From positions 1 to 64,000 of the forward strand of contig NZ_CP011515.1 of the NCBI RefSeq assembly GCF_001653795.1: a stretch of 64,000 nt of DNA, written 5' to 3'. The position numbers were made by a program, and so were the translations under genes. Source of the stretch: Mitsuaria sp. 7. Lineage in GTDB: Bacteria > Pseudomonadota > Gammaproteobacteria > Burkholderiales > Burkholderiaceae_C. The notes beneath the pieces are model-generated. The model did not search any database and had not been told where the DNA came from. It worked only from the letters and a program-made list of their open reading frames with translations. This document shows, one piece after another, positions 21 to 60,803 of this stretch (positions are counted from its first letter, which is position 1; each line of letters begins with the position of its first letter).

Positions 21-65
21 CCCCTCTCCCGCTTGCGGGAGAGGGCAGGGGTGAGGGCCAGCGGC
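21..65 (+). repeat. REP-like palindromic repeat, copy 1
   Basis: An 11-bp inverted repeat (CCCTCTCCCGC, TT, GCGGGAGAGGG at 22-45) is followed by a conserved tail reading GGGGTGAGGGCCAGCGGC. The same unit recurs at 5511, 16681, 59639 (inverted) and 59703. Here it lies upstream of the oxidase genes; what precedes it is outside the window. Confidence 0.85.
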
Positions 66-5510: not shown

Positions 5511-5554
5511 CCCTCTCCCGCTTGCGGGAGAGGGTGGGGGTGAGGGCCAGCGGC
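5511..5554 (+). repeat. REP-like palindromic repeat, copy 2
   Basis: Same unit as copy 1 with one difference in the tail (TGGGGGTGAGGG). It begins 11 bp after the channel-gene stop and is preceded by TCTTGCT, the same flank seen at copy 3. Its position and stem suggest it could act as a terminator or mRNA-end stabiliser. Confidence 0.85.
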
Positions 5555-16680: not shown

Positions 16681-16724
16681 CCCTCTCCCGCTTGCGGGAG
16701 AGGGCAGGGGTGAGGGCCAGCGGC
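16681..16724 (+). repeat. REP-like palindromic repeat, copy 3
   Basis: Identical core and tail to copy 1. It begins 11 bp after the cyclase stop and is preceded by TCTTGCT, as at copy 2. Confidence 0.85.
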
Positions 16725-58129: not shown

Positions 58130-59416
58130 TCAGGCTCGTCCAGCAGTGGCGGTGACGGGTTGGTCGTGCGGGGCCGCCGGGAGGCGGCCGTTGAACAGCA
58201 GCCGCGTCACGGCGAAGGGGCGCACCACCCAGCGATGGAAGGCCAGGCTGAGCGCCAAGGCGCCTGAAGCGATGAGCGCGAACTTCAGCGCCGCGGGCCA
58301 GTCCAGCGGCAGCAGGAGCAGCGCCAGCGCCACCACCATCAGGTGGTGGACCAGGAAGATCGTGTAGCTCGCGTCGGCGAGCGCGCGGCCCAGATGGTGG
58401 CCAAGACGGTCGCCCATACCGCTGCCGTGCGGGCGGCTCCGCCAGCGGGCGAGCAGCCCGACGGCCGCGCCGGTGGCCAGCCAGATGCCGAGCAGTTCCA
58501 CGGCCAGCGCCACCTCTCGCGCCAGCGCGTGCGGCAGCGTGTCGCTGGCCGCGTCGCCCCAATTGGCCGCGAAGGCCGCCACCGGCAGCAGCCACCACGG
58601 CGTGCGCAGCCAACCGGCCAGCCACGTCGGGTGGTGTCGCATCGTCAGTCCGGCCAGGAACATCGGTGCGTAGAACGCCAGGTTGAACAAGGTCAGGCCG
58701 CCGGGTCCCGGCGCATAGGCCAGGCCGCTCAGCCGGACGACGACGAGCAGGAGGTGACTCAGCAGGGCGCCGATCAGCGCCACGGTCATCCAGTGGATCG
58801 GGTGGGACGCGGGCAGGGACGCGAAGGCGATCTTCCGCCGGGTCCCAAGCGGCAGAGCGCCGCGGATCGCCACCCAGACCAGCACGAGCAGGTTCATCAC
58901 CAGCAGGTCGCGCACGAACCAGAGATGGCCCATGGGCGTCGAGATCGATGCCAGCGCCTCCCATGGGTCACCGCCGCGATGCCAGGCCAGCAGGGCGGTC
59001 TGCGCGGCGTTGAGAACGGCCCAGCAGCTCAGCAGCGGCACGCCCAGGCGTACCAGTTGGCGCAGCGCGAGGCCAGGTGCGGCATGACGCGTCAGGCTGC
59101 CCGCGAAGAGCAGGCCCGATAGCAGGAAGAAGCCTGGGACGCGGAAGCTGTGGATCACAGCGACCAACGCGTCGAAGGCGATGCCGCGGTGGGAATCGGA
59201 GACCAGCCAGTCGCCGGCGCTGACGAAGACGTCCGCGGCATGCAGGGCGATGCCCAGCACCATCAGCGTGGCGCGGATCCTGTCGAAGTCGATGGCGACA
59301 GCCATGCCGGTGGGACCGGATGTCGCTGTCGCGGGCGTCGTGATTGTTTCTGCGGTGGGCGGCCCGCCGACGGCGGAACCGGCCACCTCCCCGTGCGGGG
59401 CGATGGAAACGTGCAT
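58130..59416 (-). CDS. Acyltransferase 3-type membrane protein
   Basis: A 428-residue polytopic protein of the acyltransferase 3 (MdoC/OafA-like) superfamily with about ten spans. Motifs: ATLMVLGIALHAADVFVS (first span with the histidine), HSFRVPGFFLLSGLLFAGSL and DASYTIFLVHHLMVV. It may acylate glucans or surface polysaccharide. The ATG at 59416 has a strong GAGGAGG ribosome site six bases upstream. It is the last gene of the minus-strand sugar block, 133 bp after the epimerase gene. Confidence 0.85.
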   Translation of the reverse strand: MHVSIAPHGEVAGSAVGGPPTAETITTPATATSGPTGMAVAIDFDRIRATLMVLGIALHAADVFVSAGDWLVSDSHRGIAFDALVAVIHSFRVPGFFLLSGLLFAGSLTRHAAPGLALRQLVRLGVPLLSCWAVLNAAQTALLAWHRGGDPWEALASISTPMGHLWFVRDLLVMNLLVLVWVAIRGALPLGTRRKIAFASLPASHPIHWMTVALIGALLSHLLLVVVRLSGLAYAPGPGGLTLFNLAFYAPMFLAGLTMRHHPTWLAGWLRTPWWLLPVAAFAANWGDAASDTLPHALAREVALAVELLGIWLATGAAVGLLARWRSRPHGSGMGDRLGHHLGRALADASYTIFLVHHLMVVALALLLLPLDWPAALKFALIASGALALSLAFHRWVVRPFAVTRLLFNGRLPAAPHDQPVTATAGRA

Positions 59417-59549
59417 GGCATACCTCCTCAGCACTTGCCGGGCGCCTCTCCGTGCGCCTGAGCGAATGACTGTACGAGTGGCGCACCTGCGAAATGCATC
59501 CACCTGTAAGCAGTTCTTTCAGAGCCCCCCGGAACGCGGGGGTGGCCGG

Positions 59550-60803
59550 TCAGCGGAGGAGATCGCCCGCGAGCCGGGCGACGATGCGCGCGGCCGCCTG
59601 GCCGTCCCAGAGAGGGGGGCGGCGTACTTCAACGTTGGGCTGGCCCTCACCCCCACCCTCTCCCGCAAGCGGGAGAGGGAGTCCGCCACTGCTCCTGCCA
59701 CCCCCTCTCCCGCTTGCGGGAGAGGGCAGGGGTGAGGGCCAGCGGCCGTCGATGTCATCGACCCGTTGCATCGCCAGTGCCAGGATCCGCGCCGGGTCGG
59801 TGCCAGCGATCTGGTTGGTGCCGAGGTCCACCGTGACCGGCCGCTCGGTGTTGTCGCGCAGCGTGAGGCAGGGAATGCCCAGCGCGGTGGTCTCTTCCTG
59901 CAGACCGCCACTATCCGTGAGGACCAGCGCGGCGCGGCGCCACAGCGCCAGGAACGGGCGGTAGGGCAGGGGGGGCAGCAGGTGCAATCCCGGTGCGGGC
60001 GTCAGGCCCAGCGCTTCGAGGCGGGCACGCGTGCGCGGATGCACCGGGAACAGCAGCGGCAGTCGCGCTGCCAGCGTGCCGAGCGATTGCATGAGTGCGG
60101 CGAGCTGCGCCGGATCATCCACGTTGGCCGGCCGATGCAGCGTGACGACACCGAAGCGGCCCGTGGTCGCGTCGCCGGCGCCAGCGGCATCGAGCGCCGC
60201 CTGCGCCGCCGCTTCCGCGGCTTGCGCCTCGGCATCGCCGGCGGCCAGCCGCTGCAACTGGAAGAGCAGGTTGTCGACCATGACATGACCGACCTCGACG
60301 ATGCGCGTGTCCGGATGCCCTTCGCGACGCAGGTGCGCGGCCGCGCTGGGTTCGGTCGTGAAGAGCCAGTCCGTGATCGCGTCGGTCGCGCGGCGGTTGA
60401 TCTCTTCGGGCATCGTCATGTCGCCGCTGCGCAGGCCGGCCTCGACGTGCGCCACCGGCACGCCGAGCTTGCGCGCCGTGAGCGCGCAGGCCAGCGTGGA
60501 GTCGACATCGCCGACGACGACGCAGGCGGCAGGACGGTCCGCGATCACATGCGGCTCATAGGCCTGCATGATCCGCGCGGTCAGCTGCGCATGACCGCCG
60601 CCGTGGCAGTCCAGCGAGACGTCGGGCGGCGGCAGGCCGAGCTCGTCGAAGAACACGCCGCTCATCGCGGCGTCGTGATGCTGTCCGGTGTGGATCAGCT
60701 TCCATGCGAGCCGGCCATCGGCGCGCAGCGCCCGCACCAGCGGCGCGAGTTTCATGAAGTTGGGCCGCGCGCCCGCGATGAGATGCAGCAGCGGCGCGGC
60801 CAT
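59550..60803 (-). CDS. wecB: UDP-N-acetylglucosamine 2-epimerase with in-frame repeat insertion
   Basis: A 417-residue non-hydrolysing epimerase that converts UDP-GlcNAc to UDP-ManNAc in the cytoplasm. AGARPNFMKLAPL, AGLRSGDMTMPEEINR, TLHRPANVDD, DSGGLQEE and NTERPVTV are the family's conserved segments. Near the C-terminus, residues about 353-388 are encoded by an inverted pair of palindromic repeats (59639-59746, exactly 108 bp). This splits the conserved end, which resumes as PPLWDGQAAARIVARL. Without it the length would be a normal 381. Activity is plausible because the insert lies after the catalytic residues. It is next to rfbC in the same operon. Confidence 0.9.
   Translation of the reverse strand: MAAPLLHLIAGARPNFMKLAPLVRALRADGRLAWKLIHTGQHHDAAMSGVFFDELGLPPPDVSLDCHGGGHAQLTARIMQAYEPHVIADRPAACVVVGDVDSTLACALTARKLGVPVAHVEAGLRSGDMTMPEEINRRATDAITDWLFTTEPSAAAHLRREGHPDTRIVEVGHVMVDNLLFQLQRLAAGDAEAQAAEAAAQAALDAAGAGDATTGRFGVVTLHRPANVDDPAQLAALMQSLGTLAARLPLLFPVHPRTRARLEALGLTPAPGLHLLPPLPYRPFLALWRRAALVLTDSGGLQEETTALGIPCLTLRDNTERPVTVDLGTNQIAGTDPARILALAMQRVDDIDGRWPSPLPSPASGRGGGRSSGGLPLPLAGEGGGEGQPNVEVRRPPLWDGQAAARIVARLAGDLLR
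59639..59746. repeat. Inverted pair of REP-like repeats, copies 4 and 5, inside wecB
   Basis: Copy 4 (59639-59679) is in inverted orientation to copy 5 (59703-59746); 23 bp separate them. The outer ends GCTGGCCCTCACCCC and GGGGTGAGGGCCAGC mirror each other. The pair is 108 bp long and has no stop in the wecB frame. Confidence 0.9.

Follow-up and report, generated by a model that had tools for sequence, protein, structure and literature searches.

A REP-type palindromic repeat in frame in wecB of Mitsuaria sp. 7, probably tolerated as a translated loop

Introduction

How does the gene of a conserved enzyme come to hold two inverted palindromic units within its reading frame, and what becomes of them there? 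The question is raised by wecB, the gene for a non-hydrolysing UDP-GlcNAc 2-epimerase, in the stretch of DNA from Mitsuaria sp. 7 analysed here (“the window,” 64,000 nucleotides of contig 2 of a 6.09-Mb genome, hereafter G000). The reading that we prefer, with a probability of roughly 0.83, is that a REP-type mobile element sits in wecB and is tolerated as a translated loop, while insertions that broke genes were purged.

The insert in wecB

The wecB product (Table 1) scores 260 bits against TIGR00236 in an NCBIfam profile search, the cut-off being 210, and it also matches Epimerase_2 of Pfam. The insert is built from two inverted arms, 59639–59682 and 59700–59743, each of 44 nt, which are 93% complementary and separated by a gap of 17 nt; each contains an exact repeat core of which the genome holds 146 copies, so that the two inverted palindromic units of the preliminary description are borne out. 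The insert is flanked by ...RVDDID and RRPPLWDGQAAARIV..., and the reading frame is open all through, resuming without a stop as RRPPLWDGQAAARIV, again as first described.

The placement and the extent of the insert need revision. In a 42-row alignment of WecB (from which L106 was left out because of a stop), the final block shows no variation at P, W, D, G, and R, while the stretch before it, measured between two fixed columns, is 28–48 residues long in the 39 repeat-free rows and 68, 74, and 44 residues long in the three repeat-bearing ones. Because the block residues are invariant and the stretch before them is variable, the insert precedes the conserved C-terminal block and does not split it, as had been thought; it lies in a length-variable linker immediately upstream of the RRPPLWDG block. 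The figure of exactly 108 bp holds as the length of the stretch as first cut, but, compared with four relatives in which the anchors stand 87 nt apart, wecB has gained 96 nt net (183 vs. 87 nt), and at the right edge the similarity to the outer arm of the repeat extends to about 59625, beyond the stretch that was cut.

Table 1. Features of the wecB locus and of the other repeat cores in the window
Feature	Position	Strand	Basis or remark
wecB, non-hydrolysing UDP-GlcNAc 2-epimerase	59550..60803	-	ORF, 417 aa with insert; TIGR00236, Epimerase_2
Outer arm of unit 1, GGCCGCTGGCCCTCACCCC side, left edge approximate	59727..59748	-	arms and consensus
Repeat core 1 in gene direction, exact	59703..59726	-	
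Spacer separating the two wecB cores	59680..59702	-	
Repeat core 2, exact, inverted relative to core 1	59656..59679	-	
Outer arm of unit 2, ends near GTAC, right edge approximate	59625..59655	-	consensus and alignment
Conserved C-terminal block RRPPLWDGQAAARIV..., in-frame resumption after the insert	59553..59624	-	
Single core near the start of contig 2, not in a called gene	22..45	.	
Single core, outside called genes	5511..5534	.	
Single core, outside called genes, flanked on both sides by coding sequence in different frames	16681..16704	.	

Downstream of wecB lies an ORF (58130–59503) that we take to resemble a membrane acyltransferase, and the DNA following wecB differs in the relatives G005 and G009. 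G000 has another wecB-like gene (C1:4027230–4028186, 35% identical), which could mask a loss of wecB function.

The repeat family

G000 contains 146 exact copies of the core, CCCTCTCCCGCNNGCGGGAGAGGG, and none of its reversed control. Inside the window, CTCCCGCNNGCGGGAG is found exactly at 26, 5515, 16685, 59660, and 59707; with up to two mismatches there are six matches against 2.4 expected, which within the window is just modestly over chance. The copies outside genes that had been noted near 21, 5511, and 16681 are confirmed as single cores, none of them in a called gene (Table 1).

We retrieved 145 of the 146 exact cores with their context and took units at up to four mismatches, which gave 161 units. 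These fall into 110 clusters, of which 68 have one unit, 35 two, five three, and two four, so that 42 of the 110 have at least two units. Of the 152 units that have no more than one mismatch, 150 carry an outer arm, GGCCCTCACCCC (up to three mismatches), on one side, one carries it on both, and one on neither. In a consensus built from 149 of the 150 one-armed units, conservation reaches from about −31 to +30 around the start of the 24-nt core. Each oriented unit, about 60–70 bp long, consists of a perfect hairpin core of 24 nt and a conserved outer arm. Two-unit clusters are inverted in 34 of 35 cases, 30 of them with the arms pointing outward; a unit of one cluster is undecided. The most frequent start-to-start spacings are 64 nt (15 cases) and 48 nt (seven). 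Several inverted pairs spaced by 64 nt in G000 (e.g., L160, L161, and L164) have similar spacer sequence, and for this reason the inverted pair may itself be the mobile unit.

Among 16 genomes of the genus, exact cores are present in seven, in 146, 90, 48, 35, 22, five, and four copies, and absent from nine. Of 299 sampled genomes of the phylum, 48, G000 included, have the pattern of arm plus half core, from which we conclude that relatives of the repeat are widespread. A search of the open-access literature for the letters or peptides of this repeat returned no paper on a bacterial repeat by title or abstract, and a search for Roseateles or Mitsuaria together with repeats, likewise in the open-access literature, gave no paper on such repeats by title among the matches listed.

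Other genes with the repeat in frame

Placement was examined over 1.65 Mb of contiguous sequence, made up of all of contig 2, with the window, and the end of contig 1. The codon-based gene caller used for this had four known genes as its training set and was checked on five regions. Only one of 36 repeat clusters lies inside a called gene, although 86.9% of this sequence is called coding, and that one is wecB, the case that prompted the search and is contained in the count; the contig 1 part holds 27 of the 36 clusters and none of these is within a called gene.

Over the whole of G000, five of the 110 clusters are in frame within conserved genes, and the preliminary description had proposed a search for such further genes. 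Besides wecB, these are selB; a helicase of the ligase-associated DEXH type (TIGR04121, over cut-off); a PfkB-family, kdgK-like kinase, for which NCBIfam gives 2-dehydro-3-deoxygluconokinase as the best match (325 bits, where the cut-off is 400); and a double ABC ATPase of the dipeptide/GsiA kind. For the last gene, the site in the nearest relative (L356, 60% identical) was unmatched by the script, and the comparison of filled and empty sites covers wecB, selB, the helicase, and the kinase. Among the matches listed for two further genomes of the genus (20 stretches in G004 and 19 in G005), one of 23 clusters examined in G004 is internal to a gene, hrpA (TIGR01967), and in frame, and four of 20 examined in G005 are in frame, in wecB, selB, the helicase, and the kinase.

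Several other clusters were set aside as in-gene cases: C1:2743118 because of a weak frame, C1:3587566 because it is at the edge of a called gene, and L374 in G004 because it is close to a C-terminus. A further copy at the 5′ end of the helicase gene (C1:858114; L170:3001–3024), whose translation is possible and depends on the start codon, was excluded as well.

Filled and empty sites across relatives

The wecB tail was read in all 16 genomes of the genus. The repeat is present in three (G000, G005, and G009), at one site and in frame, and the other 13 are empty, which supplies the empty site that the preliminary description had proposed looking for in relatives. These three species form the clade (G000,(G005,G009)) with support of 100/100 (four proteins, 2205 columns). 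The selB site is filled in the same three genomes, and the other 12 that were readable (G011 was unread) are empty. The helicase, compared in 15 genomes, has the repeat in G000, G005, and G009, and the loop of G013 has a different repeat-like peptide. Since the three carriers are one clade, the insertions in wecB, selB, and the helicase come most simply from their common ancestor. The kinase site is filled in G000 and G005, and in the remaining 12 of the 14 genomes read the loop is 57–60 nt long; the insert is missing from G009, the sister of G005, which implies that G009 lost it or underwent recombination, or that the insertions were independent.

The site in wecB has not stayed as it was. 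Read from the letters, G000 has a pair of units, G005 one unit and a collapsed long palindrome, and G009 a single unit. The distance between anchors, which were matched in 10 of the 16 genomes, is 183, 201, and 111 nt in the filled genes of G000, G005, and G009, respectively, and 87 nt in four and 69, 105, and 123 nt in three of the empty ones. The linker of the host appears replaced more than interrupted. No target duplication is seen between filled and empty sites of wecB and the kinase, the edges being approximate and not base-exact. The restriction of exact cores to seven of 16 genomes of the genus is consistent with the earlier suggestion that the repeat is mobile.

Three of the four insertion sites compared are loops whose length differs also where the repeat is absent (wecB in G013 and G014, selB in G013, and the helicase in G002, G014, and G015), the kinase loop being otherwise 57–60 nt. 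For wecB, this variation is the one point in favor of regarding the insert as a normal extension of the WecB family, with no repeat insertion at all. Such a reading is hardly credible, however: the DNA of the insert is the dispersed repeat itself, down to exact cores, the repeat is missing in 13 of 16 members of the genus, and the 39 remaining rows of the 42-row alignment contain none of its peptide motifs. The 13 empty sites lead us to reject it.

Two further observations concern the loops themselves. In selB of G009 (L310), DVP and HEV micro-repeats are expanded in the loop beside the repeat-derived peptide. The helicase loops of G002, G015, and G014 (L340, L346, and L348) have long low-complexity sequence with no visible trace of the repeat.

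Translation and selection

Whether the inserts are read can be approached through the codons downstream of them. Between the aligned genes of G000 and G005, these show 20 synonymous and three nonsynonymous changes in the kinase (54 codons), 140 and 44 in the helicase (690 codons), and 80 and 47 in selB (334 codons). The changes in all three genes are mostly synonymous, so that translation appears to run in frame across the insert, and, judging by these downstream codon changes, the inserts are probably translated. Upstream of the insert in wecB, the same pair of genomes gives 99 synonymous and 31 nonsynonymous changes in 336 codons. The wecB tail has 20 aligned codons, with 3/6 synonymous/nonsynonymous changes for G000–G005 and 7/5 and 5/3 for the other pairs; these codons are too few, and the tail alone therefore gives no support for translation. 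For wecB, translation is argued from the other genes and from the conserved RRPPLWDG block.

In the insert-bearing loops, the synonymous/nonsynonymous changes between G000 and G005 are 9/18 in wecB, 11/15 in selB, 8/5 in the kinase, and 4/3 in the helicase. These counts are no proof of neutrality because they are small and include host residues, and neutrality is not clean either, since synonymous changes slightly exceed nonsynonymous ones in the kinase and helicase loops. The translated loops might also have been co-opted, for binding a partner or tuning the enzyme, for instance, and three of the four inserts compared are indeed found in all three species of the clade. Their unit content and length differ among those species, though, the surplus of synonymous changes is less marked in the loops than in their flanks (on small counts), and the kinase insert is missing in G009 even though its sister G005 has it, all of which makes co-option very improbable in our view.

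Alternatively, the repeat may act in the gene as RNA, with a stable hairpin in the wecB transcript that is processed or slows ribosomes and so sets expression or mRNA stability. A 136-nt piece of the transcript does fold at −116.8 kcal/mol (z = −12.7), and none of 200 shuffles is equally good; any long inverted repeat would be expected to fold strongly, however, and no Rfam family matches at gathering score. Matches below that score, mostly to animal and plant microRNA families, were discarded as hairpin artefacts. The pair is also not kept, with one unit in G009 and rearranged units at this site in G005, and because of this lack of conservation we disfavor a role as RNA and hold it to be unlikely.

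There seems to be nothing special in the repeat that would keep a frame open. The consensus of arm and core is open in five of six frames, a TGA standing in one reverse frame, and a TAA past the core shuts one forward frame too. Clusters with their flanks have a mean of 3.9 open frames, compared with 4.1 in random stretches of the genome of equal length; since clusters are no more stop-free than random sequence, frame keeping needs only the loss of failures.

Taken together with the tree, the history of wecB under the preferred reading of a tolerated mobile element would be as follows. A REP-type repeat, often found as an inverted pair, would have entered the stretch coding for the wecB linker before G000, G005, and G009 diverged from their common ancestor, presumably by transposition. 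Some insertions would yield an unbroken frame, given the five open frames of arm and core, and those breaking needed genes would have been lost. The insert in wecB would be read as a Pro/Gly/Arg-rich loop ahead of the final conserved block, one that is tolerated without being useful. Later, the units would have been reshuffled, to the pair of G000, the extra unit and collapsed palindrome of G005, and the one unit of G009, always with the frame kept.

What moves the repeat

In REPIN/RAYT systems, REP units are scattered genome-wide as inverted pairs. The repeat described here resembles them in its dispersed inverted pairs, with 34 of 35 two-unit clusters inverted; 68 of the 110 clusters are single units, and, unlike in those systems, no linked RAYT was found. 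A RAYT (Y1) transposase could still move the repeats in trans, which would make them REPINs in the strict sense. The multi-unit clusters (42 of 110) and the inversion of nearly all pairs fit such a mover, and a Y1_Tnp gene is indeed present, once in G000 and once or twice in each of the 13 genomes of the genus that were searched. On the other hand, genomes without the repeat among these 13 also have the Y1 gene, no core with up to four mismatches lies in the flanks (≈1.5 kb) of 20 of the 24 Y1 loci of the genus that were scanned, there is no inverted repeat around the Y1 gene of G000 (L063:1000–2400), and the unit consensus, read on both strands, has neither the GTAG nor the CGTC tag. A link was thus sought in Y1 flanks, in co-occurrence over 13 genomes, and at the Y1 locus of G000, and was not found; we regard a RAYT as a possible but doubtful mover.

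With similar reserve, we put forward as a tentative proposal that the repeat belongs to a widespread, apparently unnamed family with a mover other than a RAYT, which in this clade has repeatedly given conserved enzymes loops of ≈15–50 residues whose arrays reshuffle in steps that hold the frame. The finding in any case points to a common repeat family. Sites in several genes, filled and empty on a tree of free-living bacteria, make tolerance, frame keeping, and loss measurable. For annotators there is also a warning: peptides like GPHPNPLPQAGEG or SLSRLRERAG within proteins can derive from repeat DNA.

Comparison with known systems

The preliminary description supposed that a case with this repeat family might be undescribed in a betaproteobacterium, a group to which Thauera also belongs. 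Novelty for the betaproteobacteria in general is not supported, as REPs of the GTAG/CGTC super-families have already been reported inside ORFs of Thauera, O. terrae, Xanthomonas, R. conorii, and others (PMC3733652, in the part of the text available). According to the same part of that paper, in-ORF REPs are single or paired, many of them lying in genes for DNA repair and some in those for RNA helicases. In-frame repeats in genes are therefore a known phenomenon, as far as the available parts of PMC3733652, PMC2229807, and PMC10969869 describe such cases, and it is the repeat family and the genus that look like additions to it.

REPs are defined as palindromic sequences with many similar copies, mostly in non-coding DNA, the unit being 14–40 nt in E. 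coli (PMC12306157, available portion). Here, the palindrome is 24 nt long and occurs in 146 exact copies against none of the control, and 35 of the 36 clusters in 1.65 Mb are not within a called gene. Like the REPs of PMC3733652, these are short palindromes that are mostly intergenic and sometimes in conserved genes, with helicases among the targets; unlike the families covered in the available part of that paper, the repeat here is without the super-family tag, as read from the consensus, and without a tie to a tyrosine transposase.

Small mobile elements with ORFs, such as ERIC and Correia, are described in the accessible text of PMC2229807 as forming in-frame fusions to host genes. The repeat in wecB is likewise a small element fused in frame, and differs from them in its sequence and in that no target duplication is seen here.

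There is also a likeness to the Rickettsia palindromic element (RPE), an in-frame palindromic element of 105 to about 150 bp in unrelated conserved genes whose proteins are presumed functional; almost half of the RPEs are reported in genes, and one RPE-bearing enzyme (gmk) is experimentally active (PMC2229807 and PMC10969869, in the parts available). Unlike RPEs as described there, the repeat here is in conserved genes in just five of 110 clusters. As with RPEs, a palindrome is found in frame in unrelated conserved genes, in wecB, selB, the kinase, and the helicase, with empty sites in relatives.
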